The notes: generated by a model from the sequence alone, not told the origin. Counted from the stretch's first letter, positions 10,554 through 37,441 are shown. The stretch is 48,744 nucleotides of DNA from a virus (IMGVR_UViG_3300003702_000025:1-48744), one strand, 5' to 3'. Made by a program: numbers and translations.

Positions 10554-10554
10554 G

Positions 10555-11012: not shown

Positions 11013-11207
11013 ATGGCAGATCCCACCACTTTTGCCTATGTTGTACTCAAAGCCATCCAAGATCGAATCATGCTGACCCAGGCAGCTATTTTGCAGGGAA
11101 GGCCCAAGGATTTTATGGACTACTGTGATTTGACCGGGGAATTAAGGGGCCTTGAGTTCGCAGAACAAGAAGTAAAAGACGCTTTACAATCGTCGGAGGA
11201 AGAATGA
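11013..11207 (+). CDS. Small helical protein, 64 aa
   Basis: Helical, acidic C-terminus: FAYVVLKAIQDRIMLTQAAI, later FMDYCDLTGELRGLEFAEQE. I recall similar small head-region proteins in marine phages but no named role. Its stop overlaps the start of the GroES-like gene (ATGA at 11204), so it is translationally coupled to it. Could be a head assembly accessory. Confidence 0.65.
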   Translation: MADPTTFAYVVLKAIQDRIMLTQAAILQGRPKDFMDYCDLTGELRGLEFAEQEVKDALQSSEEE

Positions 11208-17371: not shown

Positions 17372-18106
17372 ATGGCATACAATGAAGAAGCATTGGCAAG
17401 GTACATGTTAGAGACAGGGAAGGTTCCACAGGAAGGAGAGGTTTTCTTCAGTTCTGCAGGTGAACTCTATGAGACGCAATCTGAAGAAGGGCTAGAAGCA
17501 ATGCGTGCTGAATTAGAGCTTTTAGATTATGAAGAAAAGAAAAAACGGTTGGGAAGTAAACAGCTCTCACGTCAAAGAGGCTGGGAACCATCAATGGAAG
17601 GTGCTGGAACCATTGATGAGCGTCGTGCGCCCAGAGTCCCAGAAGAACCGCCCCTTACGCTTGGGAAAATAGCAAGGGCTATGCTTATTGGATCAACAAC
17701 AGAGGAGGGTTTGCCCGTACCTGGGGCGTTAGGAGTTATTCCTGCGGTTAGAGCAGCGCAGGGTGCGCGGGCTGTAGCGTCAAGCATACCCCGTGGAGTA
17801 GTGACGAAAGCAGGAGAACTTTATAGATATTTACGAGGACGACCAATACCAGAACCCCGTATGCCTCGTCCAGAATATCATGTTCCGCCGAGAGCCGACC
17901 GAACACAAGCTCGCATAAAGCCTGATGTAAGAACACGGAAAAAGCCTAAAAATCCAACAGAAGCGGAGTTGCAAGCCTATCGAGAAGGTACCATTACAAG
18001 AGAAGAGCTTTTTGGTGGACCAACTTTTAAAAAAGGTGGTCTAGCTCGTAAAAAAAATATCGATGGAAAAGCCACTCAAGGCAGAACTGACCCGAAGTAT
18101 TTCTAA
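17372..18106 (+). CDS. Unknown virion-region protein with GKATQGRT tail
   Basis: I start at ATG 17372, with GAGGG upstream; a TTG at 17366 is in frame but less likely. The first 80 residues are acidic-helical (NEEALARYMLETGKVPQEGE), a short hydrophobic patch lies near ALGVIPAVRAAQGA, and the rest is Pro and Arg rich. It ends KKGGLARKKNIDGKATQGRT plus DPKYF. The same ending recurs in the 18107 product and, altered, in the 37061 product. Function unknown. Confidence 0.65.
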   Translation: MAYNEEALARYMLETGKVPQEGEVFFSSAGELYETQSEEGLEAMRAELELLDYEEKKKRLGSKQLSRQRGWEPSMEGAGTIDERRAPRVPEEPPLTLGKIARAMLIGSTTEEGLPVPGALGVIPAVRAAQGARAVASSIPRGVVTKAGELYRYLRGRPIPEPRMPRPEYHVPPRADRTQARIKPDVRTRKKPKNPTEAELQAYREGTITREELFGGPTFKKGGLARKKNIDGKATQGRTDPKYF

Positions 18107-18400
18107 ATGGCTGAAACACGAAAAGGGAGAATAAAGCTTCTTGACCGACCTTTCAGAGAAGGTCGTGTTGAGGCTTCTATAGAAGGCGATACAAGACCTT
18201 TATGGAAGGGATTTAGAGCGAGCTTAGATTATTCCACGCCCAATAAAAGGGGTGGTTCCAGAAGGGTTGGACTTACATATCATTCAGATGATGATTCAAT
18301 TGGTGGGGCCATCGAATGGAGATTTAAAAAAGGTGGCCTAGTTCGTAATATCGATGGAAAAGCCACTCAAGGCAGAACTAACCCGAAGTATTTTTAAATG
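18028..18400 (+). repeat. Direct repeat encoding C-terminal tails
   Basis: About 75 bp at 18028-18110 recurs at about 18324-18400. It covers AAAAAAGGTGG, then AATATCGATGGAAAAGCCAC and TCAAGGCAGAACT to the stop codon and the next ATGGC, with few changes. The copies are 12 bp different in length near the tail start. They encode the shared tails of the 17372 and 18107 genes. Confidence 0.85.
18107..18397 (+). CDS. Unknown small protein with GKATQGRT tail
   Basis: 96 residues, ATG immediately after the previous stop. The body is a basic beta-like domain (GRIKLLDRPFREGRVEASIE, then RVGLTYHSDDDSIGGAIEWR), followed by KKGGLVRNIDGKATQGRTNP and KYF. The body is unlike the 17372 product, yet the last 18 residues are almost the same. 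The position within the neck-tail operon suggests a virion component. Confidence 0.65.
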   Translation: MAETRKGRIKLLDRPFREGRVEASIEGDTRPLWKGFRASLDYSTPNKRGGSRRVGLTYHSDDDSIGGAIEWRFKKGGLVRNIDGKATQGRTNPKYF

Positions 18401-18901
18401 GCACGTTACGCAAGTGGAAAACATGCTCTTGGGATCTCAGACAGGTCTGGGAGAGCTTATCATTTAACAAAGATGCTTCGTGAATGGAACGGTCTTTTGG
18501 TGGGAAGAGATGAATATGAGTCTAAACAACCTCAATTGACTCCTTCTCGAGCTGATCCAGACCCACAAGCATTAAAGATAAGCCGTCCTGACAGGACTGA
18601 ACCTCCTGTAGAGGTCTTATTACCCTTTAATTCGTTTAAATCCGGTTCCAGTGGGTCTGCAACTATTACTGTCACGGAACCTGGACACGGTAGAAGTACC
18701 GGCGATACGGTTCGATTCAGGGATGTAGAGGCGTTTGATGGCTTTACGGAAGCGGTTATAGAGGGAGCAAGTGGCTATAGCATTACAAAAGTGGATGACG
18801 ATAGTTATACCTTTTCCGCGAGTAGTGGAACCGCAACTACAGGAAGCGTCAAAGGAGGCGGCGGATTTGCCTCTGCCGGCCCTGTAACAGTGAGTTCGTA
18901 A
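18398..18901 (+). CDS. Tail or neck protein with beta module
   Basis: 167 residues, ATG directly after the previous stop. The N-terminus MARYASGKHALGISDRSGRA, then YHLTKMLREWNGLLVG, is a conserved opening I recall in marine phage tail clusters. The C-terminal half is a beta domain, SGSATITVTEPGHGRSTGDT to DDDSYTFSASSGTATTGS. A related module is inserted in the 25901 hub protein. Likely attaches to the portal-neck region; unproven. Confidence 0.65.
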   Translation: MARYASGKHALGISDRSGRAYHLTKMLREWNGLLVGRDEYESKQPQLTPSRADPDPQALKISRPDRTEPPVEVLLPFNSFKSGSSGSATITVTEPGHGRSTGDTVRFRDVEAFDGFTEAVIEGASGYSITKVDDDSYTFSASSGTATTGSVKGGGGFASAGPVTVSS

Positions 18902-18902
18902 T

Positions 18903-19547
18903 ATGGCATTTACATTTACAACTTTAAAAACGGCGATTCAGGACTATACGCAGAATACCGAGACAACTTTTACAGACCAGTTGACTCGATTCATTCTGAA
19001 TTCAGAAGAACGTATTCTGAAAGAGTGTCAATTGGATGTGTTTCGTAAGAATTCTCAGGGAACAGTTACTTCATCCAATCGATTTTTGACTAAGCCAACG
19101 GATTTTCTGGCTCCTTTTTCTTTAAGTGTGATCAACAGTTCCAAAAACGAGTTTCTGTTGTATAAGCATGTGACCTTTTTACAGGATTACACGCCGAATA
19201 CGAGTACGACAGGTGTGCCTCAGTATTATGCTGATTTTGATGATACGACTTTCCTATTGGCACCTACTCCGGATGATGGATATACCATGGAACTTCATTA
19301 TTTTTATAGGCCCCAGTCGATTACAGAGTCTTCAGATGGTACAAGCTGGCTTGGAACCAATGCAGAATTGGCACTTTTATATGGCGCCTTGGTGGAAGCC
19401 TATACTTTCATGAAGGGAGAACAAGACTTATTAGGCTTGTATAACTCGAGATTCCAGGAATCTCTGCAATGGCTGAAGAACCTTGGAGAAGGTGAAAACT
19501 CCCGAGACCAGTACCGTTATGACAGTCTAAGGAGAGATGTCGCTTAA
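18903..19547 (+). CDS. Adaptor protein, SU10-type
   Basis: 214 residues. The pattern FTFTTLKTAIQDYTQNTETT, FILNSEERILKECQLDVFRK, TKPTDFLAPFSLSVI and ELHYFYRPQSI fits the phage adaptor family that connects portal and tail nozzle. It was first structurally described in podovirus SU10. Following the gp4-like gene, it belongs to the neck module. Its stop overlaps the next ATG (TAATG). Confidence 0.78.
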   Translation: MAFTFTTLKTAIQDYTQNTETTFTDQLTRFILNSEERILKECQLDVFRKNSQGTVTSSNRFLTKPTDFLAPFSLSVINSSKNEFLLYKHVTFLQDYTPNTSTTGVPQYYADFDDTTFLLAPTPDDGYTMELHYFYRPQSITESSDGTSWLGTNAELALLYGALVEAYTFMKGEQDLLGLYNSRFQESLQWLKNLGEGENSRDQYRYDSLRRDVA

Positions 19548-19831
19548 TGTTTGATATGGAGGGAAATGTTGGAGCGGTTACGGTAATTACCACTACAAAC
19601 CGTGGCATGAATGCAGAAGAATGGGCAGAAACTGCTGTCCGTAGAATTGTGTCTGTATCCATGAATTCTCCAATGCCCATCCGTGAACAAGCATTTGCTT
19701 TTCGTGAGCAGGTCAAGACGATCCTTATTCAATACTTCAAGAAAGTGGCTCAAAGTGAACGAACAACCATACGTGCCGTTCTGGAAAAAGAAGGGTATTT
19801 CGACTTAGCGAAGCAATTAGAGGTCCTTTGA
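19547..19831 (+). CDS. Small helical tail-region protein, 94 aa
   Basis: TTNRGMNAEEWAETAVRRIV, then PMPIREQAFAFREQVKTILI and AQSERTTIRAVLEKEGYFDL. Mostly helical. I recall this 'P.pIR.QA.aF' pattern from tail-region genes in marine phages, where it is always unknown. Start overlaps the adaptor stop, and the next gene starts one base after its stop. Possibly a chaperone or minor tail factor. Confidence 0.65.
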   Translation: MFDMEGNVGAVTVITTTNRGMNAEEWAETAVRRIVSVSMNSPMPIREQAFAFREQVKTILIQYFKKVAQSERTTIRAVLEKEGYFDLAKQLEVL

Positions 19832-19832
19832 C

Positions 19833-20267
19833 ATGGCTTTTACCGGAAACTTCATGTGTACGTCTTTCAAGAAAGAGCTTATGGAAGCTAAGCACGATTT
19901 CTTAAATAGTGGCGGCGACACTTTTAGAATTGCGTTGTATAGCAATAGTGCCTCTTTCACTGCAGCTACGACAGCTTATACGGCAACTAACGAGATCACT
20001 GGTACAGGTTACACGGCTAAAGGCAATTCGCTAACCCGCGTAGATCCTTCTACCAGCGGTACGACTGCGTTTACCGATTTTTCGGATAGCACTTGGACTT
20101 CTTCCACTCTTACGGCGCGGGGAGCACTTGTTTTTAATGATTCGGCCAGTGGTGATCCATCCGTTATCGTGTTGGATTTTACTGCGGACAAGTCTTCCAG
20201 TTCAGGGGATTTTACGATTGTCTTTCCTGCTGCAGATGCCAGTAACGCGATTATAAGGATCGCTTAA
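19833..20267 (+). CDS. Beta-rich tail-associated protein, 144 aa
   Basis: MAFTGNFMCTSFKKELMEAK, then DTFRIALYSNSASFTAATTA, then a TAKGNSLTRVDPS segment and SSSSGDFTIVFPAADASNAI. This is a common, recognisable phage structural family of unknown exact position, usually found among tail fibre genes. Beta-rich and Ser/Thr rich. Its stop overlaps the next ATG. Confidence 0.7.
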   Translation: MAFTGNFMCTSFKKELMEAKHDFLNSGGDTFRIALYSNSASFTAATTAYTATNEITGTGYTAKGNSLTRVDPSTSGTTAFTDFSDSTWTSSTLTARGALVFNDSASGDPSVIVLDFTADKSSSSGDFTIVFPAADASNAIIRIA

Positions 20268-20839
20268 TGGCAGCGATTACAGGCTGGGGGCGCAGTACCT
20301 GGGGTTCAGGCACCTGGGGCGAAGCCTTTCCTGTCTCTGTTACGGGTGTCGCTGGCACAGGTGCCGTTGGTTCTGTAACCGTTGAGCTTAGTATTGATGT
20401 TTCTGTAACAGGTGTTGCGGGAACCAGTGCGGTTGGATCTGTAACGGTTACTGAAGGAAGCGGTGTAACCGTTTCTGTAACGGGTATTGCTGGAACGGCT
20501 GCGGTTGGATCTGTAACGGTTGAAGGTGATGCCAACGTCAGCGTAACGGGTATTGCAGGCACTGGTTCTGTAGGTTCTGTAACGGTTGAAACTGATGCTA
20601 ACATCAGTGTAACGGGTATTGCTGGAACGGCTGCGGTTGGATCTGTAACGGTTGAGGGTGATGCTAACGTCAGTGTAACGGGTGTATCGGGTACAGGTGA
20701 GGTAGGACTTGTTCTTGTTTGGGGCATTATAGATGATTCTCAAACACCTAATTGGAGTGCCATTGATGACTCACAGTCTGCTTCATGGTCAGAAATAGAT
20801 GATTCCCAGACGCCTGATTGGTTAGATATAGCAGCATAA
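20267..20839 (+). CDS. Repeat protein, VTGxAGTxAVGSVTVE units
   Basis: 190 residues. It opens with GWGRSTWGSGTWGE, then has about six copies of a 17-22 residue beta unit (VSVTGVAGTGAVGSVTVE and variants). It closes with three copies of IDDSQ-x-x-W-S (WSAIDDSQSASWSEIDDSQT). The units would stack into an extended beta fibre or shaft. It precedes the tail fibre gene, so it may be part of the tail fibre assembly. The number of repeats is likely to vary between relatives. Confidence 0.65.
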   Translation: MAAITGWGRSTWGSGTWGEAFPVSVTGVAGTGAVGSVTVELSIDVSVTGVAGTSAVGSVTVTEGSGVTVSVTGIAGTAAVGSVTVEGDANVSVTGIAGTGSVGSVTVETDANISVTGIAGTAAVGSVTVEGDANVSVTGVSGTGEVGLVLVWGIIDDSQTPNWSAIDDSQSASWSEIDDSQTPDWLDIAA

Positions 20840-20852
20840 AGGTAACTTAGAT

Positions 20853-23381
20853 ATGGCAAGTACATACACAGCTAATCAGGGCCTCGAAAAACCGGCAACG
20901 GGTGATCGTTCCGGAACTTGGGGGACCATGACAAATACGAACATGGATATGTTGGACCGGTCCATTTCAGGGGTGGGCGCACTTAGCCTGACAGGTACGA
21001 CTACTACCTTAACCACGTCAGAGGGTTCTGCTTCAGACGGGAACTATAAGGTTCTGGTACTGGGTGGAAGTCCGAGTGGCACGAATACTATTACGTTAAG
21101 TCCCACCGACGCGGATAAATTGTATTTTGTGGTCAATGCCACCGGCCAAAGCGTAATTTTTTCACAAGGCACTGGTGCGAATGTCACGATTGCCAATGGC
21201 GCGGCTGACATCATCTACGCGGATGGTGCGGGAAGTGGTGCAGCCGTAGCAAGTTTGCTGGCTAATGACCTTGTTTTTAAGACAGGTGATGGCGTAATTC
21301 TGAATCTTCAGACCTCTGATACGACGGTAACGGCTGCAAGTGTTCTGGGTCGTTTGAATTTTACAGCGCCCGATGAAGCCAGTGGGACTGATGCCATCCT
21401 CCTGGCCGCATCCATCGCCGCTATTTCAGAAGGCACCTTCGCGGCAGATAACAACGCTACCAAGCTCTCGTTCTTGACTGGTGCGTCAGCGGCGGCGTCG
21501 GAAGTGATGTCCATATCGTCGGTCGGTAACGTGACGATGAAAGAAACCGAAACCGGTGACGACACGCCGATGACCCTTGCGTTACAGACTGGTGAAGTGG
21601 ACATAGCAGCCTCCGATGTACTCGGGAAGATTGAGTTCAATGCTCCTGACGAAGGCACTGGCACTGACGCTTTGCTCGTTGCCGGGGCTATAGATTGCGT
21701 CTCCGAAGGGGACTTCAGTTCAAGTTCTAACGCCAGCAAATTGTCATTCAGAACTGGCGCGTCCGAAACAGCTACTGAGAAAATGCAGATCAGTTCAACC
21801 GGCAACGTGACGATGAAACAAACGGCCACGACCGATGACACGCCGATGACGTTGCTGTTGCAGACGGGTGAATTGGATGTCGCCGCCTCCGATGTACTCG
21901 GGAAGATTGAATTCCAAGCACCAGATGAAGCTACTGGCACTGATGCCATACTTGTTGCCGGGGCTATCGACTGCGTGAGCGAAGGCGATTTCAGCAGTTC
22001 GTCGAATGCCTCGAAGTTGAGTTTCAGAACTGGCGCGTCTGAAACTGCGACCGAGAAAATGTCGTTGTCTTCTGGCGGTAATTTAACGCTACCAACAGAC
22101 GGGGTTGTCATTAATTTGGGTGCAGATAGCGACGTAACGTTAACTCACAGTGCGGATGTCGGATTAGTTTTAAACACAACGGGAAATAATGATACTTCGC
22201 TTATAATAAAATCAACGGCGGCAGATGCGGGGGCAGCGCCAAACCTTTATTTGACACGAGATTCAGGTAGCCCCGCCGATGCCGACCTGTTGGGTAATAT
22301 AATTTACAACGCTGACAACGACGCGGGAGAAAACACTACCTTTGTTCAAGCATATGCAACGGCGCTCGATGTAAGTGACGGCTCTGAAGACGGCGACCTC
22401 AAGTTCCAAGTGGTCACAGCCGGTAGTTACACAACACCGTTAACTTTGAGAGGCTCTGGGATCATCATTCCAGACGGTGGCACCATTGGTAGTGCTTCAG
22501 ATACCGATGCGATACAAATACGGTCTGACGGGAATATCGGTATTAATGCAACGGCATCCGACACAAAGAAAGTAACTGTATATGACAATACGACCACCGA
22601 CCAACTGATGAACATGTATCAAGACAACGCTTCTAATGCTCTCATTGCAGTACAGATTACGAATGACGGGACGGGGATTGGACTTTATTCACAAAATGCA
22701 GGTACGGGTTCAGCGGTTTACGGATACAACACTGGTGCCTCTGGAATTGCAACACGGGGCCATTCTGTTGCCGGCTTCGGTGGATACTTTGCTACTGCAA
22801 ATGCATCCTCGGTCGGATGTGCTGGTTTTGCTGCTGTTACTTCTAATTACGGTTATTTGGGCTACTCCACGAATGGTCTCCTTGCGTCATCCGTCTATTG
22901 CGTCGGAGCAATGTACAAAGGCTCAGGCACGTTCCGTATCCCGCACCCACTGAAGTCAGAAATCGAAGACGAACCGTGGGATCTTTGCCATAGCTTCATC
23001 GAAGGACCGCAGTGTGACCTGATCTATAGAGGCAAAGTTGATCTTGTTGACGGCCAAGCCAGCATTGATATGGATAGTCATTATGGGATGACGCAGGGAA
23101 CTTTTGAGTGGCTCACAAAAGCTGACGAAGTGCAGACGTTTACGTCTAATGAAACAGGATGGGACGCAGTCCGTAGTAGTTTTTCTGGAGACACAATTAC
23201 GATTGAATGCCAAAATTCCTCCTCTACGGATACGATAAGTTGGATGGTAATTTCTGAACGTGGTGACCCCAATATCATTGGAAGCACGATTACAGATGAT
23301 GAAGGTAATTTGCTAATTGAACGACCAAGCGAACCGGAACCACCTGCACCACTACCAGCAGAGCCGCCGTTAGATCCTTAA
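20853..23381 (+). CDS. Tail fibre / receptor-binding protein
   Basis: 842 residues. The N-terminus MASTYTANQGLEKPATGDRS, followed by GTWGTMTNTNMDM, is a standard opening for attaching to the podovirus tail. The shaft has three 92-residue units (276 bp each), containing SDVLGKIEFNAPDEGTGTDA, SSSNASKLSFRTGASETATE and GNVTMKQT, plus a degenerate fourth. The C-terminal domain GTFRIPHPLKSEIEDEPWDL, then CHSFIEGPQCDLIYRGKVDL and GMTQGTFEWL, is a conserved fibre tip or trimerisation domain. A proline-rich end follows. This is the main host-range candidate. Confidence 0.85.
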   Translation: MASTYTANQGLEKPATGDRSGTWGTMTNTNMDMLDRSISGVGALSLTGTTTTLTTSEGSASDGNYKVLVLGGSPSGTNTITLSPTDADKLYFVVNATGQSVIFSQGTGANVTIANGAADIIYADGAGSGAAVASLLANDLVFKTGDGVILNLQTSDTTVTAASVLGRLNFTAPDEASGTDAILLAASIAAISEGTFAADNNATKLSFLTGASAAASEVMSISSVGNVTMKETETGDDTPMTLALQTGEVDIAASDVLGKIEFNAPDEGTGTDALLVAGAIDCVSEGDFSSSSNASKLSFRTGASETATEKMQISSTGNVTMKQTATTDDTPMTLLLQTGELDVAASDVLGKIEFQAPDEATGTDAILVAGAIDCVSEGDFSSSSNASKLSFRTGASETATEKMSLSSGGNLTLPTDGVVINLGADSDVTLTHSADVGLVLNTTGNNDTSLIIKSTAADAGAAPNLYLTRDSGSPADADLLGNIIYNADNDAGENTTFVQAYATALDVSDGSEDGDLKFQVVTAGSYTTPLTLRGSGIIIPDGGTIGSASDTDAIQIRSDGNIGINATASDTKKVTVYDNTTTDQLMNMYQDNASNALIAVQITNDGTGIGLYSQNAGTGSAVYGYNTGASGIATRGHSVAGFGGYFATANASSVGCAGFAAVTSNYGYLGYSTNGLLASSVYCVGAMYKGSGTFRIPHPLKSEIEDEPWDLCHSFIEGPQCDLIYRGKVDLVDGQASIDMDSHYGMTQGTFEWLTKADEVQTFTSNETGWDAVRSSFSGDTITIECQNSSSTDTISWMVISERGDPNIIGSTITDDEGNLLIERPSEPEPPAPLPAEPPLDP
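21339..22166 (+). repeat. 276-bp tandem repeat in the fibre gene
   Basis: Equivalent points in the shaft units lie at 21339, 21615 and 21891, exactly 276 bp apart. Copies two and three are nearly identical in protein over long stretches and differ mostly at synonymous sites; copy one is more diverged. Confidence 0.85.
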
Positions 23382-23426
23382 ACATGAGCAGCCTATGAAG
23401 AATGAATATCGTGTCGATTTTTAAGA

Positions 23427-24332
23427 ATGGATATTGGAATTTTCGAGGGCGGTGCAATCGCCGTGTGCCTTGGGCTGGTGGGGACAATGTGGGGCTTCCT
23501 GCAAAAACTCGTCAGCAGCAAACTGCGCGAGCAATATGAGATTATCGTGAAATTGATAGATCGAATAAATCGCTCAGACGAGGCTTCAGAAAGACGGCAC
23601 AATGCGCTGATAGATAAAACCGACGAATTGGAAAATGCTACTAACATTCGTAATCTCGGCGGACTACCACCGGGCTTACCACCAGGAGTGGGTTTACCAC
23701 CGGGTTTCTACGGTAAACAGAACTTACCACTAGGGCTAGGTTCCCCACTGGGCTTACCACTGGGACCGGGTTTACCACCGGGCTTACCACCGGGACTCGG
23801 CGTATTACCACCGGGCTTACCACCGGGTTTCCCAGGACCGGGCTTACCACCGGGACTTGGCGTATTACCACCGGGCTTACCACCGGGTTTCCCAGGACCG
23901 GGCTTACCACCGGGTTTCCCACCAGGACCGGGCTTACCACCGGGAGGGGGCTTACCTTCACCATTACAAACACCAACACCGACACGCGCAAGCTTACCGC
24001 AAGCTCCGATAGGACCCGGCGTACCAGGATTAGGAGCATTAACACCACCACTAGGTGGTCAACCTTTCCAACCACTATTTGGAGGAAGTCCGTCACCTAT
24101 ATCGACGGGTGTAGGACCCGGCGTACCAGGATTAGGAGCGGCCACACCTTCACCATTAGGAGGGCAGGGCTTACCTTTAGGAGCGGGTTTACTACCAGCA
24201 ATAGGAACTCCGGGTCGTCAACCTTTCCAACCACCTTTTGGTCTGGGTCCGGGTAATATACCTCCTGGTGGGCTAGGGAACTTTGGAAATGCTTTTGGTG
24301 GCACCCTTCAATGGCCTTATGGACCAAGATAA
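23427..24332 (+). CDS. Membrane-anchored Pro-Pro-Gly repeat protein
   Basis: 301 residues. The N-terminus has one hydrophobic segment (GGAIAVCLGLVGTMWGFLQK), then a coiled coil (LREQYEIIVKLIDRINRSDE). From about residue 78 it is almost only Gly, Leu, Pro and Phe, in LPPG and PPGF repeats such as GLPPGLPPGF. It is not a strict collagen Gly-X-Y pattern. The end is GGTLQWPYGPR. The layout resembles a membrane stub with a rod. It could be an internal or tail-tip protein, or a holin-like stub fused to a low-complexity rod. The repeats are 60 bp in the DNA. Confidence 0.65.
   Translation: MDIGIFEGGAIAVCLGLVGTMWGFLQKLVSSKLREQYEIIVKLIDRINRSDEASERRHNALIDKTDELENATNIRNLGGLPPGLPPGVGLPPGFYGKQNLPLGLGSPLGLPLGPGLPPGLPPGLGVLPPGLPPGFPGPGLPPGLGVLPPGLPPGFPGPGLPPGFPPGPGLPPGGGLPSPLQTPTPTRASLPQAPIGPGVPGLGALTPPLGGQPFQPLFGGSPSPISTGVGPGVPGLGAATPSPLGGQGLPLGAGLLPAIGTPGRQPFQPPFGLGPGNIPPGGLGNFGNAFGGTLQWPYGPR
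23665..23948 (+). repeat. Tandem repeat (60-bp unit) coding for PPG rod
   Basis: The segment around 23791-23820 recurs at 23851-23880 with one change. Shorter ACCACCGGGCTTACCACCGG motifs repeat across the whole stretch. Period is 60 bp, or 20 residues. Confidence 0.85.
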
Positions 24333-24398
24333 TTGGAGCACTATCCAAAAAAACTAGCTTTCTTCAGGGCTAATATCAAGACGTGGGGCGTTAGATAG

Positions 24399-25901
24399 AT
24401 GTTTTTTGGTCCACCCTCAAGTGGAATGTCATCGGCTGCGGGAGGGGTGTGGGGGAGGCTAGCGACCCCCCGCACCTACATTCGAAATGAGTTCACTGGA
24501 GGGTGGGAACTGGACGAGGCTTCGGGGGGAACGCCCAAGCCGGAAGTCGATTATTCTTACTACTTCTCGCCAGCGCATCGAGCCTTACGCGCAGCAGAAG
24601 CACGAAAAATTGGTGAACGCGCTGGCGAGCCTATCATTCCTCCCGGTTTTGAAGGGTTCGTAAAATCGGATCTGTTTGATATATCACGCCTTCCAAAATA
24701 CCCCACCTATGAAGAGTCAATGGCGGTTTACGATGCCGAGCGCGCTGATTTACCGCCGGTCAGTGGGCCATTCCCCACCATCCGCAACGAATTTTTCAGG
24801 ATACAGCCGGGCGTCTACGATTGGGAAAAGCGCGAGTACGGGGGTCAACTGCAATATCTTGATCCTGTATTACCGTCGATGCTTAACCTTAGTCGCGGAT
24901 CGTGGAAAAAAGTAGATGATTCGCCCGCCATTCGCCGCTTGGCGTCAACGCCAAATTTATATGCCTCGTTCTATCCACGCGGCGGACGCGGTGCCGAATA
25001 TACATACTGGAAGAGAGCGATCCAGGAAGCCGTGGCTAACCCGAATAAAGGGCCGGGTCCACAACAGAGATCGCTGGGTATAGGGGGGAGAGTCTACGCG
25101 CAGAGTAGAGCACTATTGGAACGCCCGTCTAGTAAGGGGATTTTTGGGTTGCCCGGTCCCGTCAGTGGAATTCTACAAGGGGCTCTTCTGGGCGCAGGTG
25201 CGGGGTACATAGGAAGCACCGTTGCTGCTGCTGCAGCAGCAGGTCTTCCACAAACCGCTTTGACGGCAGCTACTGCGGCCAATGTAGCCACGTCCATACC
25301 CGATGTTACGAACCCCAACACCAACATAGGCCCCCTAGCTACGTTTGCGTCCGCCTTTTTACCCGGCGGAAAGTTTATAGCCCCTGTCGTAGGGGCAGGC
25401 ACAGGTTATGTTTCTGGTGGCCCAACAGGCGCTCTTTTCGGTGGGCTTAGAGGCTTAGGAGCAGCTTATACGGCGGGAGAACTCGCCGCACCGTCTCCCA
25501 CACCTCCAAGTCTTTTCATTCCCAGCACACAGGGTGTTTATAGCGGACTTGGTTCCTTGGGGACCGCTGCCAATGTTCTAGGTTCTCCTGGAGGACAATT
25601 TTTAACCACTATAGGCCAAAGTTTAGCTACTCCTACACCTACACCACAAACAATTGGTGCTCTAGCTCCGGCTGGGCTTACTGCAGCTCTAACTGCTGGG
25701 GCGGCACTTACACCTTCCAATGTTCCATACACTTATGAACCTTCTTATATAGGAAAGGCACTAGGTCCTAACTTCCTGAATCAAATAGAAAGGGGAATTG
25801 CTTCCTTGGGACCAGGAACTGCTGCACCTTCCCCTAGAATTAGGTCTCTTGATCCTAACTTCATGAACCAGTTTGAACGAGCCAAATTGGGATTAGCGTA
25901 A
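24399..25901 (+). CDS. Candidate internal virion protein, 500 aa
   Basis: N-terminal half is folded-looking and proline and tyrosine rich, with RNEFTGGWELDEASGG and later YTYWKRAIQEAVANP. The middle, GILQGALLGAGAGYIGSTVA and onward, is hydrophobic, Gly and Ala rich, as in proteins that form a channel during DNA ejection. The C-terminus repeats a motif: GPNFLNQIERGIASLG and DPNFMNQFERAKLGLA. The stop overlaps the next ATG (TAATG). I do not recognise a named family. Confidence 0.55.
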   Translation: MFFGPPSSGMSSAAGGVWGRLATPRTYIRNEFTGGWELDEASGGTPKPEVDYSYYFSPAHRALRAAEARKIGERAGEPIIPPGFEGFVKSDLFDISRLPKYPTYEESMAVYDAERADLPPVSGPFPTIRNEFFRIQPGVYDWEKREYGGQLQYLDPVLPSMLNLSRGSWKKVDDSPAIRRLASTPNLYASFYPRGGRGAEYTYWKRAIQEAVANPNKGPGPQQRSLGIGGRVYAQSRALLERPSSKGIFGLPGPVSGILQGALLGAGAGYIGSTVAAAAAAGLPQTALTAATAANVATSIPDVTNPNTNIGPLATFASAFLPGGKFIAPVVGAGTGYVSGGPTGALFGGLRGLGAAYTAGELAAPSPTPPSLFIPSTQGVYSGLGSLGTAANVLGSPGGQFLTTIGQSLATPTPTPQTIGALAPAGLTAALTAGAALTPSNVPYTYEPSYIGKALGPNFLNQIERGIASLGPGTAAPSPRIRSLDPNFMNQFERAKLGLA

Positions 25902-28180: not shown

Positions 28181-28383
28181 TGGCCAAACTGCTTGACCAT
28201 AGTTTTCCGGATATTGGCGGTGTGGATGTGGGTGCTATCAGTCCTATCACCGGAAAACCACAATTTCTTGAGACTCTACAGCGTATTGTAAGAGATATCG
28301 AAATTGCCCTGTCAAAAATTGAATTCCCGTCTGAAGTGGAAGGGAAAGACGAGTCTCGAGCCTTGACCTGGTTCATTAACTGA
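28180..28383 (+). CDS. Small hypothetical tail-region protein, 67 aa
   Basis: MAKLLDHSFPDIGGVDVGAI, then a helix LETLQRIVRDIEIALSKIEF. Soluble, slightly acidic. Start overlaps the gp10-like stop (TAATG) and the stop is one base before the next ATG. No family recognised; tight coupling supports a real gene. Confidence 0.6.
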   Translation: MAKLLDHSFPDIGGVDVGAISPITGKPQFLETLQRIVRDIEIALSKIEFPSEVEGKDESRALTWFIN

Positions 28384-28384
28384 A

Positions 28385-28708
28385 ATGCCCACTTTTTATA
28401 AAAACGCAAAAGTGGACCTGACATCAACGGATGTCACAACGCTGTATACCACGCCGGAAGCCACAACTGCCGTATTTAGGTCTATTCTGGTGGCCGATGA
28501 CAGTGGTAGTACCTCCACGATTACGCTCACCCTTACGAATTCAGCAGCTGCCGTGTTCGTCCTGTACAACGTCAAAGCGACCGTGGCCAACGGAACAGTA
28601 GAATTGCTCACGCAGCCTTTGGTGGTGCTGGAATCCGAGATTTTAAAAGTGACGGCGGCAAATGCCAATAGATTACATGTAGTTGGAAGCTACATAGAAA
28701 TTTCTTGA
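28385..28708 (+). CDS. Conserved beta-sandwich virion protein
   Basis: 107 residues. The pattern YKNAKVDLTSTDVTTLYTTP, then FRSILVADDSGSTSTITLTL, then ANRLHVVGSYIEIS is a well-recognised small structural protein in many marine phages ('...a.vdLT.td.t.lYt.P.gtt.iv.si.v.d'). The exact virion position is unknown to me. Seven beta strands are predicted by eye. Probable tail surface protein. Confidence 0.72.
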   Translation: MPTFYKNAKVDLTSTDVTTLYTTPEATTAVFRSILVADDSGSTSTITLTLTNSAAAVFVLYNVKATVANGTVELLTQPLVVLESEILKVTAANANRLHVVGSYIEIS

Positions 28709-28726
28709 TATACTAGAGGTGTTTTG

Positions 28727-30109: not shown

Positions 30110-30123
30110 CAGGAACTACTACG

Positions 30124-31170
30124 ATGCCAGAAACAACCACAGAAACGGCAGTAGTCCGTCAAGCTCCGTATCTGGAAGATATTCAGAAGGAGATACTTGA
30201 TTACACACTAGCGCGGGGTCAAGTCCCCGTTGGGATCCCTTCTGTCGAAGTAGCGGGTCTCGATCCACTGACGCAACAAGCGATGGCGACGGGTCGTGGT
30301 ATTGACCAGTTCATGCAGTATTTGCCCACGGGCGCTGAAACAATTGCCGGTGGTCTTGAAACTTTACGGGAACGGGCAGCGGGTGTACCCGCCTTGTTTG
30401 GAGAAGCCGCAGAACGGGCTCGAGGTGCAGCGGCAGGATATGCACCGACCACTGCAGCTATCCAACCCTTCATGGACCCTTATCAGCAGCTCGTCACGCG
30501 GCAAGCTGTGGAAGAAATGGGTCGTCAAGGGGAATTGGCACGTAATCAAATAAGAGCGCAGCAAGCAGGATTAGGAGGTTTGGGCGGTGAACGAGGTGCA
30601 TTGCAACTTTCAGAACTTCAAAGAAACCTGACCGAGCAGCAAAGCCGACGTGTTTTTGAAGACATGTCCCGTAACTTCAATCAGGCCCAGAATGCATCAC
30701 AGACTGCTTTTGAGAACCAACAACGCAGACAGCAGAGTGTTGCACAATTACTGGCTGGTGTAGGACAAGCCAGTGGACAGGAGGCAGTACGCACAAGCGC
30801 CGGCATTGGGCAATTCGGCGCATTGCAAACTGGTATAGCTGGCCAGGGTCAGGGTTTGCTTGGCCAGCAAGCACAACTCCAATCACAATTAGGTGCTTTG
30901 GGTCAGACCCAGCAACAGCGTATTCTGGATGCAGAACGTCAAACCCAGTTACAACAGGCTTATGAGCCTTTCCAACGCATAGGTTGGATGGCGGATATCT
31001 TTAAACCGTCCATTGGTTCAGCCGGTTCTACCCTAGGTGTTTCGACAGCACCTTCCCCAAGCATGCTTTCGTCAGGCATTGGTCTGGGCATTGCGGGACT
31101 GGCTCTAAACAACGCGTATGGAAACCCGCTAGGAAATGTTTTTGGTAACCTGTTCGGTCCACAAACATGA
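30124..31170 (+). CDS. Internal virion (ejection) protein candidate
   Basis: 348 residues, Gln, Ala and Gly rich, largely helical. QAPYLEDIQKEILDYTLARG opens it. VTRQAVEEMGRQGELARNQI, RNLTEQQSRRVFEDMSRNFN and many QQ pairs make a long helical body. It ends with a Gly/Ala hydrophobic part (SGIGLGIAGLALNNAYGNPL). This resembles the small ejection proteins (T7 gp14 class, by position and composition). Start at 30124 lies 14 bases after the previous stop. The next start overlaps its TGA (ATGA). Confidence 0.68.
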   Translation: MPETTTETAVVRQAPYLEDIQKEILDYTLARGQVPVGIPSVEVAGLDPLTQQAMATGRGIDQFMQYLPTGAETIAGGLETLRERAAGVPALFGEAAERARGAAAGYAPTTAAIQPFMDPYQQLVTRQAVEEMGRQGELARNQIRAQQAGLGGLGGERGALQLSELQRNLTEQQSRRVFEDMSRNFNQAQNASQTAFENQQRRQQSVAQLLAGVGQASGQEAVRTSAGIGQFGALQTGIAGQGQGLLGQQAQLQSQLGALGQTQQQRILDAERQTQLQQAYEPFQRIGWMADIFKPSIGSAGSTLGVSTAPSPSMLSSGIGLGIAGLALNNAYGNPLGNVFGNLFGPQT

Positions 31171-33485
31171 GCGCCCTTAAACAGGTTTTAAACAGGCGCT
31201 TGTTTCGACACGGTGGAATGCTTGGCCCCGAAGATCCTCAAGGTATTCTTAATTCTTCCAATGCGCTTGCTAACGTGGTTCGCATGCAGAATGGTGGCCA
31301 AATACAACTGGGTATGCCGCCCATGGGTAGTCAAGACTTTAGAGCAGCTATGGGTGAGCAGTGGGATGAGTCATGGATGCCTCCAATAAGTCTTCAGGAA
31401 GCTCAAACCATGGGCTTAACAGGAGGTGAGGAGCGTTCACGGTTGGGTCTCGTAGACGAAATTGAGGCACCCCCTGAGAGAGACTTAACAGGTGACCTGT
31501 ATTTCCCGTCCTCTTTAGACTTGGAGGAAGCTTCTAGGACAGCCGCTGACGTGGCTAAGGGGATTGGACTTCCAGCACCTGTGCATGATGACCAAAGAGT
31601 TTCTGAGCGTTTAATGTTAGACCAAGAAAGCCAGGCGTGGGAGACGGTCGGAAAAATACCTCGAAGAGTAGGGGAAGAAGCGCCTTTAACACCAGCCAAT
31701 CAGATAGAGGTGCCAATAACAATTCCTCAAAGAGATGCTATGGGAAATCGCATAGAGGAACCTGTTATAGGGGGTACGCGCGAGGAGGACACTAAAAAGG
31801 CTGTTGACCAAATAATTGCGGAAGAAGGGATGGATATTTCTGGAGGTTATCTATCGACTGGTCCAGAGGTTGTAAAAGAGGTTGTACCAGAGAAAGAGGT
31901 TGTACCAGAGAAAGAGGTTGTACCAGAGGTTGTAAAAGAGGTTGTCCTTGATGGAGAACCGGCTTTAACACCAGCAGACATTCTCAGTAGAGATTCTATC
32001 AATGCTTTAGGAAAACATCTGGAAAAAGACAAAGTCCCTGACCAAAATAAAGAAGCGTTGAAATTTTCTATTGAGAAATTCAAACAAGACTTTATAGACG
32101 CGGCACCAGAATATGAAGGGAAAACAGACTTTGAAAAAAGTATGACGCTGGCCAAGTTAGGAATGTCCATAGCCGCAGGTAGAAGTCCCCACGCAATACA
32201 GAATATTGCCAACGGCTTTTTGGCAGTTGCTGACCAGTTTACTACTGATGACAAGCAAAAACGGGCATATGAGCGACAAGTTAATCTTTCTGCCCTTCAA
32301 TATAGTTTTGGCAGATTGAAGGAAAATAGGGTCGAGGCGAGAGAAATTGCCAAGGAAGGTCGTGCTATACACTGGATGAGCGCCAGTAAAGATTTCAAGA
32401 ATCCTATGACAGGAGAACTAATAGAGGCTGGTTCAGAATTTGTAATTCCATTAGAGGAGCTTAGAAGCGGTGTGTGGCAAACGCAGCTACAGAAAGGGAA
32501 CTTCACCCTTACAAGTAATTATCTCGAGAAGTTAAAAGTTCTAGCGACAAATGCCAAGGCAACTGCTGTTCAGGTAAAAAATACTCTTAGATATGTAATA
32601 GGCCAAGAGGGCGCTCTCGATCAAAAGGAGTATATGACGGAATGGGCAAAGTATGTAGAAAACGTAGAGGGATTAACAAAAGGTGCAACCATCCTAACTC
32701 TTCTTGATGTCATGGGAGGCCAGTTACAAAGCGGTCAAGTAACAGGAGCCGTTCCCTACCTAGCCAGAAAATGGGCGAGGATTAATGCCCTTTTAAACTG
32801 GGGTGGTAAAGGAAATATAACTGTCGATGGAAAGGAAAGCGCACTCACAGCAGGCGAACAACAACTATACCGCGCTGTAGACCAGCTTAAGGATATAACT
32901 GGCGACGCAACACAGTCAGATATCAATGCTGCAACTATGCCTGGTAACTATTTAGATGAGGCGGGCAAGGAAACAACTCATCAAGGCTTTGAAGAATTAG
33001 GTATTGATAGCATCAAATATTTTGACCGTGCTCAGGTAGTTGCCAATTTGATGATTAAAGAACTGTTAGGAGAAGGTTCTAAAAACATATCCAATATTGA
33101 CAGGCAATTGGCACAGGAGATTGTAGGACTGGTAACTGATATGCAAGCTGCAACCGAGCCTACAGAAGTTCTTCAAGCAAGAATAGATCGTGTCAGGCAA
33201 AGAGTTCTTCATACATTTGAAAGTAATGTGGCAACGATGCAGCAATTTGAGAAAATGTACGAGTCTGTCTACCGCGCTGTTCCAGGGAAAGGAGAAGGAA
33301 TACCATTTGATGTGGTGCCAGTTCTCCCAGAATTCACAAAGAGGAGAGAAAAGGCATTTAAAGAGGTGGAAGCACTGAGAGAGGGTCTTCCCGAAGGCGC
33401 AATTGGCCCTTCACAACAATTAAATGTCTTTGATTTTATAACGCGAGGTCCTGACGGCAACCTTATGTGGATAGGGCAAGGTTAG
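31167..33485 (+). CDS. Internal virion protein candidate, 772 aa
   Basis: It begins LKQVLNRRLFRHGGMLGPED, a common opening of marine phage internal proteins ('mnrrlf..GG'). A disordered acidic region follows, with a short tandem repeat (VVPEKEVVPEKEVVPEVVKE). From about residue 270 the protein is helical (KFSIEKFKQDFIDAAPEYEG and beyond). No transglycosylase motif is evident. By size and order it may correspond to the middle ejection protein. The gene is AT-rich compared with the packaging genes. Confidence 0.62.
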   Translation: MSALKQVLNRRLFRHGGMLGPEDPQGILNSSNALANVVRMQNGGQIQLGMPPMGSQDFRAAMGEQWDESWMPPISLQEAQTMGLTGGEERSRLGLVDEIEAPPERDLTGDLYFPSSLDLEEASRTAADVAKGIGLPAPVHDDQRVSERLMLDQESQAWETVGKIPRRVGEEAPLTPANQIEVPITIPQRDAMGNRIEEPVIGGTREEDTKKAVDQIIAEEGMDISGGYLSTGPEVVKEVVPEKEVVPEKEVVPEVVKEVVLDGEPALTPADILSRDSINALGKHLEKDKVPDQNKEALKFSIEKFKQDFIDAAPEYEGKTDFEKSMTLAKLGMSIAAGRSPHAIQNIANGFLAVADQFTTDDKQKRAYERQVNLSALQYSFGRLKENRVEAREIAKEGRAIHWMSASKDFKNPMTGELIEAGSEFVIPLEELRSGVWQTQLQKGNFTLTSNYLEKLKVLATNAKATAVQVKNTLRYVIGQEGALDQKEYMTEWAKYVENVEGLTKGATILTLLDVMGGQLQSGQVTGAVPYLARKWARINALLNWGGKGNITVDGKESALTAGEQQLYRAVDQLKDITGDATQSDINAATMPGNYLDEAGKETTHQGFEELGIDSIKYFDRAQVVANLMIKELLGEGSKNISNIDRQLAQEIVGLVTDMQAATEPTEVLQARIDRVRQRVLHTFESNVATMQQFEKMYESVYRAVPGKGEGIPFDVVPVLPEFTKRREKAFKEVEALREGLPEGAIGPSQQLNVFDFITRGPDGNLMWIGQG

Positions 33486-33487
33486 TT

Positions 33488-36400
33488 ATGGTTACGATGA
33501 CCGCCCCTTCCGGCCAGATCCTTAATTTTGGAGATGCCTCTCAAGAAGAGATGCTTGAAGCATTAAATTTTCTTGATAAGAATACGGATATTTTAAAAGA
33601 GCCACCAAGTGTTGGTGCTCCCCTTGATCGACCTTTTGAACTTACCGAAGCACCCAGAATTGATGCACCTTCAAGACAGGAGCAGCAACGCCGTATAGCA
33701 AGAGAAAAAGAAGCCGTTATCCCTGAAATAAAAGATTTATCCTTTCGTTATGCCTATGGACGTATGGACCGAAGGGATGAAAAACTCGGCTATCTAGCAA
33801 GAGAATTTGGTATAGATGCTGTTACAGAAGAAAGCCCTAATGTATTTACCATTGACCAGGGCAAGGTATCTCCTGAAGTTAGAGAAAGGTATGGATTAAC
33901 CTCTTCCGGTAAAATATTCGCCGATAAACCTGGCTTTTCCTGGGTTGACCTCATGGACTTTGCCGGCGAAGCTGGTCCTTCTTTAGGTGCTTCAATGATC
34001 GCAAGTATGGCGGTTGTAGGAATGACAGCATGGCCAGCAATTCTTACAGTGGGCGCTGTGGCAGGTGGCGCAAAAGCAATAGACGAGGCAGTCGAACACC
34101 TGCAGGGTTTGAATAAGCAATCTATAGGAGAAGTAGCTACTGCTGTAGGATTTGAAGCTCTTCTTATGGGTGTATTTGGAGAAGGAGTAGGCAGAGTAGC
34201 AACACGTATGCTGGGAGCTATTTTCAAGGGAAGTGGTCCAAAAGTCAGTCAAGAACGGGTGGCTGAATTAATTGAAGGAGGTCTTACTCAAAAAGAAGCG
34301 ATAAAAGCTGCCAAAGAGGAAATCAAAGCAAAATTTTTCACAGCAATTGAAGGTGGAGCACGTCCCACAGTAGAAGCTGCAGCTGGTAAGGCAATTGCAG
34401 CTAGAGCATTGGCTATTAATGAAAAAATCATACCCAATCCAGGTGTGGGAAGGTCTAACGTAGCTTATGTCAAGAAGGTTTTAAATGATCTTACTGAAGG
34501 AAAAATCACAGAGACAGAAGCAAAAGATGTTCTCAAGGATCAAGCGCGCGTCGTCGCAAATCTTATCAATAACGAATTTAAAGATCCCAAGAAAGCTTTG
34601 CAAATGACCCAGACGGCTGTGTACGACATAATTAAAAAGGATCTTGATCAATTAGTAGATAACTTCAGTCCCATAACAGGTTTTCCAACTGATTTTGTCG
34701 AAGCCGCTAAATTAAACGCAAGATTGTTTACTGATTCAACTTCTCAATTGTACAAAACAGCAGAAGATTTAATAGGCTTGGAAGCTAAAAATTTTCCTGC
34801 TGGAGCAGCACCCGTTTATGAAAATGTTGTAGACCAGACCGGAAAAATAATCGGTAGACAGGTGACTAAAGAAGGAGAAGGTATACTAGGGGCCATTGCA
34901 AAAGCCGAATCAGATAATGAATTTTTGGAATTATCTAGTAGTTTATTTCAACAAATTAAGACAGCAGGCAAATCTCCCACTATTGGAGCCGCTGGAATAC
35001 CGGGGGAACAAATAGGAACATTTAGTCTGCATCAATTACAACAGATGAAACAGGCGTTGCGTTTAGCTGCTGGAGATCCTGAATTGGTTCCGGTCGCTGG
35101 TCAATCTTCTATAGCCCATGTCATACGATCTGTAGATGACACGTTGGATGCCAAATATAACGAATTAGCTGAACTTATTTTGAGACCAAGCACGGCAAAT
35201 CTTGGTCTGCCAACAAGTAAAGTGTCCCAGCAACAATTATTAGAGGGTCTTACTCAATGGAGAGAGGCCAATAAGATATGGGCTGCGGGACAAGAGCAAT
35301 ACAACAAAGCATCCGTAAACATGCTGGTTAAAAATACTGAACAAGGCTATTTTTCAAGTAATAGAAGTGTCTTGGACACCATAGTTCAAAAAGGTGATGT
35401 GGTTAATTTAAATAATTATTTAAATGCTGTTACTCCTTCAAAGAACAATATCCTTGCTCTCACACAATCTGGAGTAGCCGGAAAACTAGAACGGGCAAAA
35501 GCACTTATTAGTCGAACCGAAGAAGTTACTAAACCTGATGGAACTACGGCTAAATGGTTTACTGCTAATACAGAGGAGATAGCTGCTTCTAATCAACTAA
35601 TAGAAAGCATTGGAGCTGGTAAAGTTCTTCCTAAAACAAACGAATGGCTTGGGGATATTAAAGTACCAAATAAGTACAAACATCTTGATTTGGAAGAAAG
35701 AATACAGGCATTGGATGACTCCATTATTTTATCAAGAATGGGAGCTGACCCGGATCTGATTAGAAAATCTGTACGCCATGATTTAGCCAGAACCTGGATA
35801 ACCAGAGCCGTAGAATTATCCCCAGGTGAATTTCAAACCATTAATCCTGCTACTTTTGCTAAACAATACTTCATGTTGAGCCAACCCATGAGAAAGGCTC
35901 TTTTTGGTGAATCCGCAGAGAAGATGAATAACATCGTTAATGACTTTTATATTGTGGGAAATAAAAATGCGGAGCAGTTGTTTGAAAGGCTTCCTTCTTT
36001 GAAAAATGAATCTCTGATAAAAGAAATAGATGAACTTAAAAATGTGGTAGATGACACGTTAGAATTCAGTAAATCTGAATTAAACAAAGCCATAAACAGT
36101 GGGTCAATTCCAATTCCTGGAGCTGTGGTAGCTGGAATTCTAAAAAATCCCAGTTTGTATAAAAGATTACACAATCAGGTAGGAGAGGATGTACTTAATG
36201 CTCCTGGAGGCGTTAAGGACATGGTTATGAGAAATCTTCTGCAGGATCCCTTTGAACAATTGAGACTCCCAGGAGGTCAGTCTGCAGAGTTTGTTCAAAG
36301 TGGTCAGTGGGGAGCCGCACTGAAAAAAGCAATTACAGCACAAAACAAAGAGGGTGGACTGACCACTGTTCTTGGAAAAGACACTGTAGAAGCACTCACC

Positions 36401-37048
36401 AAATTAGCTGATGATGCTATCTCTATTTCAGATGTTCCTATTAAAGGTTTTGCTGCTCTGGCTGGTGCAACGGCAGGTATTGCTATTTATACCGGCATCG
36501 TGGCTAGTTTAGTTAATATATCTCTTCTGCTTCCTTCTTTGGGAGCCTTGGGTACAGCCTATGTAACAGGACGACTCTTACGAAATAAGACGATGTTGAA
36601 ACTAATGACTTCTCCCCGCTTCCGAACTTCAGAATATGAAAAAGCCATAAAGGCTGGTGCAGTTATTCCTCCTCCTGCCACACAAAGAGAAGCAGGTAAA
36701 ATTGTTTATGCCATAAATAGATCCCTTCCTCTTCTTAATTCATGGACGGCAGAGATAATGCAGAGTGGTTTATTGACAGTTCCTATGAAAGAAGAGTTCG
36801 GTAGAGGTAGAACCATGGTTGCTCCAGTAATGGAGGATGCTGCCAGACAAATTCGACAAGATATTCCTCTTAGTGCTGTTCCTCCAGGGGTGTCTCCTGT
36901 CGGCGTCCCTCCAGAGACTGCCCCCGGCCAAATGACCGCTGCAGTTACCCCGGGCCAACCGCCTGCTGCAGTTGCCCCCGGCCAAATGACCGCTGCTGAT
37001 GTCGAAAGGCAACGAGTAATGAATCAACTTGCAGGTTTACCAGCTTAA
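33488..37048 (+). CDS. Large internal virion protein, 1186 aa
   Basis: I start at ATG 33488, just after the previous stop. The biggest gene in the window. Two hydrophobic regions, ASMIASMAVVGMTAWPAILT (about residue 180) and ATAGIAIYTGIVASLVNISL (about residue 1000), could span a membrane. The rest is long helices. C-terminus is Pro/Gly/Ala rich with repeated PGQMTAA. Size, place at the end of the structural operon and membrane segments fit the large ejection protein that crosses the envelope. No lysozyme or protease motif recognised. Confidence 0.65.
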   Translation: MVTMTAPSGQILNFGDASQEEMLEALNFLDKNTDILKEPPSVGAPLDRPFELTEAPRIDAPSRQEQQRRIAREKEAVIPEIKDLSFRYAYGRMDRRDEKLGYLAREFGIDAVTEESPNVFTIDQGKVSPEVRERYGLTSSGKIFADKPGFSWVDLMDFAGEAGPSLGASMIASMAVVGMTAWPAILTVGAVAGGAKAIDEAVEHLQGLNKQSIGEVATAVGFEALLMGVFGEGVGRVATRMLGAIFKGSGPKVSQERVAELIEGGLTQKEAIKAAKEEIKAKFFTAIEGGARPTVEAAAGKAIAARALAINEKIIPNPGVGRSNVAYVKKVLNDLTEGKITETEAKDVLKDQARVVANLINNEFKDPKKALQMTQTAVYDIIKKDLDQLVDNFSPITGFPTDFVEAAKLNARLFTDSTSQLYKTAEDLIGLEAKNFPAGAAPVYENVVDQTGKIIGRQVTKEGEGILGAIAKAESDNEFLELSSSLFQQIKTAGKSPTIGAAGIPGEQIGTFSLHQLQQMKQALRLAAGDPELVPVAGQSSIAHVIRSVDDTLDAKYNELAELILRPSTANLGLPTSKVSQQQLLEGLTQWREANKIWAAGQEQYNKASVNMLVKNTEQGYFSSNRSVLDTIVQKGDVVNLNNYLNAVTPSKNNILALTQSGVAGKLERAKALISRTEEVTKPDGTTAKWFTANTEEIAASNQLIESIGAGKVLPKTNEWLGDIKVPNKYKHLDLEERIQALDDSIILSRMGADPDLIRKSVRHDLARTWITRAVELSPGEFQTINPATFAKQYFMLSQPMRKALFGESAEKMNNIVNDFYIVGNKNAEQLFERLPSLKNESLIKEIDELKNVVDDTLEFSKSELNKAINSGSIPIPGAVVAGILKNPSLYKRLHNQVGEDVLNAPGGVKDMVMRNLLQDPFEQLRLPGGQSAEFVQSGQWGAALKKAITAQNKEGGLTTVLGKDTVEALTKLADDAISISDVPIKGFAALAGATAGIAIYTGIVASLVNISLLLPSLGALGTAYVTGRLLRNKTMLKLMTSPRFRTSEYEKAIKAGAVIPPPATQREAGKIVYAINRSLPLLNSWTAEIMQSGLLTVPMKEEFGRGRTMVAPVMEDAARQIRQDIPLSAVPPGVSPVGVPPETAPGQMTAAVTPGQPPAAVAPGQMTAADVERQRVMNQLAGLPA

Positions 37049-37060
37049 TAGGTAGTAGTT

Positions 37061-37441
37061 ATGGATGAGGCAGAAAAAGAAATTGCAAGAAATATGGGCT
37101 ATCTTGAAGCCCAACGCATGCGGGACGCAATTAATAGAACCCAGCGCGCTAGACTAAAGTCAATAAATAAGCGAAAAGAAGCAGGTACATATATCGAACC
37201 GACACCAGAACAATTGGCTAATCCCGATCCCGCTTATAAAAGAAGGATGGAGACAGAGCAGAGGAACTTGGATAGAGCAAACGAAGCAATAAGATTCCGT
37301 ACAAGTGGTGAGTTCGCACAACAGTATGCTCCACCACCCACTACAAAAGCTAAAGGTGGTCTTATTAAATCTTCTCGTAAAAAATCCTACTCTATCTATG
37401 GTATTGCTACACGCGGTAAGACCAAACCTAAATATTTCTGA
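37061..37441 (+). CDS. Helical basic protein with GIATRGKTKPKYF tail
   Basis: 126 residues. NMGYLEAQRMRDAINRTQRA and onward is charged and helical. The tail is AKGGLIKSSRKKSYSIYGIA, then TRGKTKPKYF. Tail form (Gly-Gly-Leu, basic stretch, G-x-A-T-x-G-x-T-x-P-K-Y-F) matches those of the 17372 and 18107 products 19 kb away, although the bodies differ. That is the main clue to its role, and suggests joint targeting or assembly. Function unknown. Confidence 0.65.
   Translation: MDEAEKEIARNMGYLEAQRMRDAINRTQRARLKSINKRKEAGTYIEPTPEQLANPDPAYKRRMETEQRNLDRANEAIRFRTSGEFAQQYAPPPTTKAKGGLIKSSRKKSYSIYGIATRGKTKPKYF

Follow-up and report, generated by a model that had tools for sequence, protein, structure and literature searches.

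Why do three otherwise unlike proteins of one virus end in the same peptide? The question is raised by a viral stretch of 48,744 nucleotides (IMGVR_UViG_3300003702_000025:1-48744; the whole stretch is called the window hereafter), in which the products of the genes at 17372, 18107 and 37061 share the C-terminal tail GG-(L)-basic-x-GxAT(Q/R)G(R/K)TxPKYF, directly followed by the stop codon. A preliminary description of this DNA had reported the three tails, with the third copy 19 kb away from the others, and had taken them for a portable C-terminal tag, which would either sort or dock minor proteins into the virion or be a processing site. The tails are present in all three genes and the distance of the third was confirmed. 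Moreover, a portable tag on unrelated bodies is now strongly supported, since the motif is found only at C-termini, is carried by many bodies, occurs on proteins that also exist in untagged form, and has dialects that follow the phage and not the body.

The tails of the first two genes, which are adjacent, are identical in 68 of 72 bases apart from a 6-nt gap, in agreement with the near-identity noted before, and one probably arose from the other by recent copying. The gene of the third tail lies immediately 3' of a 1193-aa open reading frame (ORF) of a putative ejection block. This tail agrees with the first in 10 of 16 residues, while 3 of the 16 codons are identical and 7 synonymous; hence it is the peptide and not the DNA that is conserved. 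The bodies had been described as dissimilar, and indeed they share no sequence likeness. The body of the 18107 product is predicted to be a five-strand beta meander (pLDDT about 79), that of the 17372 product to consist of helices and disorder (at low confidence), which argues against the two being homologous by structure. Both tails are predicted to be disordered. A fold search with the 18107 model gave no match at E <= 0.001 in BFVD and PDB, a search for relatives of the 37061 product found none, and tblastn against INPHARED with bodies and tag peptides as queries returned nothing or one weak match leading to the pelagiphage HTVC023P.

As a definition of the family, the exact PKYF motif was too narrow: among the viral contigs searched it is present only in the window record and one near-identical contig and is thus private to the window phage. 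Three other patterns were used, namely class A, K-GG-(4-14 aa)-DGxAxRGxT, with the stop codon outside the pattern; class B, RGxGxAxRGxxFxG, searched together with its stop; and class C, GCGxVMxxRRKxTK, searched without it. Each scan covers up to 120 stretches, those first met, so that totals are lower bounds. Class A was found in at least 120 IMG/VR stretches with 188 in-frame matches, all of which lie within 19 residues of the stop, 137 of them exactly 5 aa before it. No more than 7 aa separate the stop from any of the 119 class C matches listed from viral contigs. When bacterial and archaeal genomes (257 Gb) were searched, the class A pattern gave 75 matches, of which 25 are in frame at scattered positions; the C-terminal location in viruses is therefore not due to chance. 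One match in this collection is a genuine tagged phage ORF. A contig with a genuine class A tag (CAIRQE010000133.1) is part of the bin of a metagenome-assembled genome; it probably belongs to a phage and was binned either together with the host or erroneously.

The tag consensus reads xKKGGxVxSASxRADGIAQRGKTxGKMV, and the A and B profiles have the core RxxGxAxRG in common (profile P = 3e-4). As judged from their sequence, the PKYF tails of the window are a class A-like dialect of this tag family. An interpretation of the KYF ending as an outer membrane protein beta-signal or a DegS-type YxF signal was dropped, since class A and class C ends are not aromatic as a rule. A PDB search with the A and B tag profiles and the DUF6321 protein yielded chance matches only. 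No account of the tag, and no pelagiphage virion proteomics or work on DUF6321 bearing on it, was found in the open-access literature searched, subscription papers and preprints being outside this search.

The three PKYF tails do not exhaust the window. Between 9842 and 11009, four consecutive small ORFs (9842, 10170/10221, 10477 and 10779) end in FSGVY, FQGVF, KTRNF and FSGTY; these endings, overlooked in the preliminary description, are related to but shorter than the PKYF tails. Read in this way, the window carries two tag dialects, PKYF and class B-like.

The preliminary description had proposed to search for the tail as a C-terminal-only motif and to count the unrelated bodies that carry it. 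Beside the positions given above, BLAST (E <= 1e-3) sorted 407 bodies of classes A and B into 161 clusters. This figure is an upper bound on the number of bodies that are unrelated, given how rapidly small disordered proteins diverge. Several tags occur together on 106 contigs of the A and B set. The same body may be found with or without a tag: in HTVC115P gp68 and record G007 the protein stops where DUF6321 (PF19846) does, while other contigs have a class A tag following this domain, and in the matches listed from INPHARED (481 records matched) the alignment halts approximately at the end of the domain. The modules KNPGLxKLPTEVRNKMGY and FPDLTGDGKVTxxDILRGRGV are A-tagged in A phages and B-tagged in B phages. 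Bodies of the DUF6321 and MPATSxKQ types have their matches in terminal modules of large PHROG families, two of which are called virion structural protein.

Among the loci listed, those of the A search hold 272 A tags and one B tag and those of the B search no A and 134 B tags; C tags were found in none of the 120 A loci and in 7 of the 120 B loci. On the adaptor tree, dialect changes 5 times, compared with a mean of 27.6 with shuffled labels.

The tags lie in a single genomic setting. We built hidden Markov models (HMMs) from window genes (TerL, portal, GroES, scaffold, 12636, the major capsid protein (MCP), adaptor, 18398 and 18903) and applied them to loci found through the tag only, all of them short, with mechanical gene calls and with the early half of most genomes outside the tag scan. 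Module genes were present on 120 of 120 A, 116 of 120 B and 112 of 115 C loci, compared with 13 of 120 control viral loci drawn with an arbitrary 14-mer (Fisher p = 8e-54, 3e-47 and 2e-47, respectively). The HMMs were iterated three times on the A and B loci, possibly inflating matches there, while the C loci and the control were scored with the same finished HMMs. The 13 control loci put the share of this phage group at about 11% of loci, which makes it a common one. All 404 tags in module-bearing contigs (272 A, 132 B) are on the module strand, and their median distance to a module gene is below 1 kb. Class A is mostly found between MCP and adaptor, class B on either side of the portal or ahead of the adaptor. 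The window itself has portal and adaptor genes of the SU10 families in the order TerL-portal-scaffold-MCP-adaptor (Table 1).

We also compared 24 relatives, found through the adaptor, at the slot between the adaptor and the 18398 gene. Both tagged genes are present in the window and L360, the 18107 type alone in L361 and L362 (ending RKGGLARNGRTKTKHF), and the 17372 type alone in L363 and, as far as the contig reaches, in L367. An untagged 18107-like gene occupies the slot in L368 and L369, and the slot is empty in L364-L366, L370 and others. Homologs of the 17372 body keep the tail (IDGKALQGKTKTKYF in L363, IDGRAVQGKTKTKYF in L367), and the relatives end in TKYF or TKHF where all three window tails have PKYF. 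Since the slot can hold both, either or neither of the tagged genes, the tagged proteins are dispensable accessories.

Table 1. Features of the window; all are on the given strand, and tail coordinates include the stop codon.
Feature	Coordinates	Strand	Remarks
Tagged accessory protein 1	17372..18106	+	244 aa, helical/disordered body, C-terminal tail FKKGGLARKKNIDGKATQGRTDPKYF, then stop
Tail 1 DNA	18029..18106	+	
Tagged accessory protein 2	18107..18397	+	96 aa, five-strand beta-meander body, C-terminal tail FKKGGLVRNIDGKATQGRTNPKYF, then stop
Tail 2 DNA	18326..18397	+	
Tagged accessory protein 3	37061..37441	+	126 aa, C-terminal tail AKGGLIKSSRKKSYSIYGIATRGKTKPKYF, then stop
Tail 3 DNA	37352..37441	+	protein kept, codons diverged relative to tail 1
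Small protein just after portal	9842..10219	+	class B-like tail ..KGGIVRGTRAQVRGRRFSGVY
Small protein	10221..10553	+	class B tail ..EGGAVNKSRGTGAAETGTGFQGVF; start may be GTG at 10170
Small ORF	10477..10779	+	shortened tail ..DGGIAKKTRNF
Small protein	10779..11009	+	class B-like tail ..TGGAIKGRNFSGTY
Terminase large subunit	4719..6203	+	PF17289; phrog_38 E=3.6e-109
SU10-like portal, candidate receptor	7171..9639	+	PF23899 SU10_portal E=9.4e-15; phrog_1216
GroES-like co-chaperonin (Cpn10)	11204..11716	+	PF00166 E=3.6e-7
Scaffold-like protein	11747..12661	+	by position and composition; phrog_28737, a family with no assigned function
Major capsid protein, candidate receptor	13833..14741	+	PF25209 E=1.6e-13
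SU10-like adaptor, candidate receptor	16467..17369	+	PF24175 E=9.8e-10; directly upstream of tagged cassettes
Conserved gene closing cassette slot	18398..18901	+	phrog_28581
Virion structural protein	18903..19547	+	phrog_2941, E=3.1e-21

A short, disordered motif that is found only at the C-terminus, with invariant small residues, on many bodies and in one morphogenesis module, and that any single gene can do without although it is matched within a genome, has the look of a docking or loading tag. We see an about even chance that it recruits accessory late proteins to a component of the particle or procapsid. Docking would depend on a portable tag, about 13-25 residues long, at the C-terminus, and its carriers would be accessory late proteins of SU10-like podophages (pelagiphages of the HTVC023P type and relatives). 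The tagged proteins may all be drawn to the neck, head or procapsid by one common structural or assembly component, such as portal, adaptor, capsid or scaffold. Every lineage of phages would have a dialect of its own (A, B, C or the PKYF form), co-evolving with the receptor. Next to the genes of portal and adaptor, bodies would come and go as cassettes, the tag making each of them compatible. The predicted disorder of the tails fits a peptide that folds on binding. The sorting or docking signal proposed previously thus gains indirect support, from the single module beside portal and adaptor and from bodies that match terminal modules of PHROG families annotated as virion structural.

Several points weigh against this docking function. 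Presence in the virion, a peptide-binding receptor and its co-evolution with the tag are what we infer. The tagged genes are located in late modules, yet their products could act in the cell. No tag was found in the first 40 kb of SU10, so the architecture does not need one. Since dialect is largely inherited on the adaptor tree, the near-exclusive dialects are in part a matter of common descent and alone do not prove a matched receptor. Finally, the tags are basic, and they could bind nucleic acid in addition to, or instead of, docking on a protein.

The last point leads to the alternative that survives best, although we regard it as unlikely: a basic, Gly-rich tail that fastens its accessory carriers to RNA or the packaged genome, with no specific protein receptor. 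The mean net charge is about +5.6 for class A and +3.9 for class B, the tails are rich in Gly, Lys and Arg and disordered, and many of the small bodies are basic as well. However, the strictly invariant non-basic positions (G, A, G and T), the fixed distance to the C-terminus and the near-exclusive dialects would be superfluous for non-specific binding.

The other main alternative, somewhat more doubtful, is that the tag sends late accessory effectors, which would not be virion proteins, to a host partner such as the membrane, the ribosome, a chaperonin or a protease. C-terminal tags of the ssrA or degron type are recognised by host proteases such as ClpXP; the phage tag is presumably unlike the ssrA tag in sequence. 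The dispensable, fast-evolving cassette genes and the phage GroES-like gene in the same module would suit a host partner. Against it stand the confinement of the tags to one morphogenesis module, next to the genes of portal and adaptor, and the position of the tagged genes inside the morphogenesis block in those records in which the surroundings were read.

We consider it improbable that the tail is a recognition and processing signal, at which a protease cuts near the GG and frees the body during maturation. The GG is conserved before a variable linker, the location is C-terminal, and other phages, T4 among them, commonly process their head proteins (PMC9958956). The processing site of the preliminary description nevertheless finds little support here: the spacing from GG to the core varies from 3 to 16 aa, many class B and C tags have no GG, and no prohead protease was recognised among the proteins from TerL to MCP scanned with Pfam and PHROGs, where a diverged one could escape; a host protease could serve instead.

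Least probable is that the tail recurs mainly because its DNA anchors recombination during cassette exchange, or as a by-product of recent duplication, with no function of the peptide. In favour of this, tails 1 and 2 are adjacent and nearly identical in DNA, the slot gains and loses genes, and tags on the same contig are slightly more alike than shuffled ones (0.691 compared with 0.660). However, tails 1 and 3 keep the protein and not the codons, codon identity across class A contigs is only modestly above that expected from usage (0.466 compared with 0.401), 3 of 182 within-contig pairs have at least 90% identical codons, and there are constraints on how long the tag is and where it lies with respect to the stop.

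A docking tag would have counterparts in known systems. Family 1 encapsulins load cargo by short, mostly C-terminal targeting peptides on unrelated proteins encoded beside the gene of an HK97-fold shell (PMC8346489). The tags are likewise terminal short conserved peptides on unrelated proteins, and the shell of the window phage is also HK97-like. The encapsulin consensus SDGSLGIGSLKRS (PMC8346489), however, is unlike the tag consensus when compared by eye, and encapsulins are cellular nanocompartments, whereas here we deal with a complete phage, several dialects and no recognised enzyme cargo. The capsid targeting sequence (CTS) of T4, a portable signal of about 10 aa on internal proteins, brings these and foreign fusions into the T4 head (PMC9958956). 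It is N-terminal and conserved on IPII and IPIII only, whereas the tags are C-terminal and hundreds of proteins carry them; nor did the scan of the module reveal a prohead protease. By analogy, the tag would work like the encapsulin peptides or the CTS but is a member of neither, differing from the first in consensus and from the second in terminus.

A further comparison is with the portal-adaptor-nozzle virions of SU10 and the kuraviruses. The portal and adaptor of the window phage belong to the SU10 families PF23899 and PF24175, and SU10 has the same gene order as the window. SU10 has only gp10 between MCP and adaptor (PMC9509320), whereas in the tag phages this interval and the vicinity of the portal have received tagged cassettes. 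HTVC023P, a cultured Pelagibacter phage, is syntenic with the window and has class B tags on gp32, after the portal, and gp51; it differs in dialect, in bodies and in an adaptor slot without tagged genes. These tags are not mentioned in the portions searched of the group's genome paper (PMC9599517).

Some further observations were made. HTVC023P has additional C-terminal tail types on gp30 (18717-19322; ..ARGGGMARMKPTKMY) and gp53 (33143-33508; ..RGFGAARTTGMGLQDEQLIPGKSLDYYKDIM), the latter also found in record G010. In the window, a holin gene of the GTA_holin_3TM family (6213-6620; PF11351 E=2.1e-22) lies between terminase and portal. The GroES-like gene is located between portal and scaffold, and is also present in HTVC023P (gp36) and many tag contigs. 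The window adaptor has 300 aa compared with 231 aa in HTVC023P, and its residues of about 69-155 match tail-fibre/Hc2-type PHROGs, which suggests an inserted domain. The untagged 18107-like body at L368:4689-4997 has an internal repeat (KKGGSKRFGLTYHSDDHRI twice). Recurrent portable modules (L335:8955-9275, L335:7998-8447 and L349:3873-4268) are DUF6321, MPATSxKQ and RGKAAAKRKFKVYPSAYANAYAS. DUF6321 forms the C-terminal end of several large PHROG families, MPATSxKQ the N-terminus of virion structural PHROGs, and RGKAAAKRKFKVYPSAYANAYAS is likewise N-terminal, so that these two may represent a code of N-terminal modules; an EF-hand-like LTGDGKVTxxDIL is a further portable module elsewhere. From these sequences, many late proteins look assembled from terminal modules.

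Overall, hundreds of mostly unrelated small proteins of a very common group of short-tailed water phages end in the same short tag and are encoded beside the genes of the head-tail neck. Our data suggest that the tag is a kind of address label not described before, by which accessory proteins become attached to the virion. It is possible, but on balance rather doubtful, that one of the most abundant water phage groups uses a modular address code, in which lineage-specific C-terminal peptides are read by a co-evolving neck or capsid receptor, so that unrelated accessory proteins can be fitted into the virion and traded as cassettes, each with its tag. The common tag puts hundreds of unknown proteins under one testable rule, the same place and the same receptor. 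If this is true, the tag would be a recognition handle for annotating dark-matter phage genes, would account for the gain and loss of accessory proteins beside conserved neck genes, and could give a phage counterpart of encapsulin cargo loading for protein packaging.

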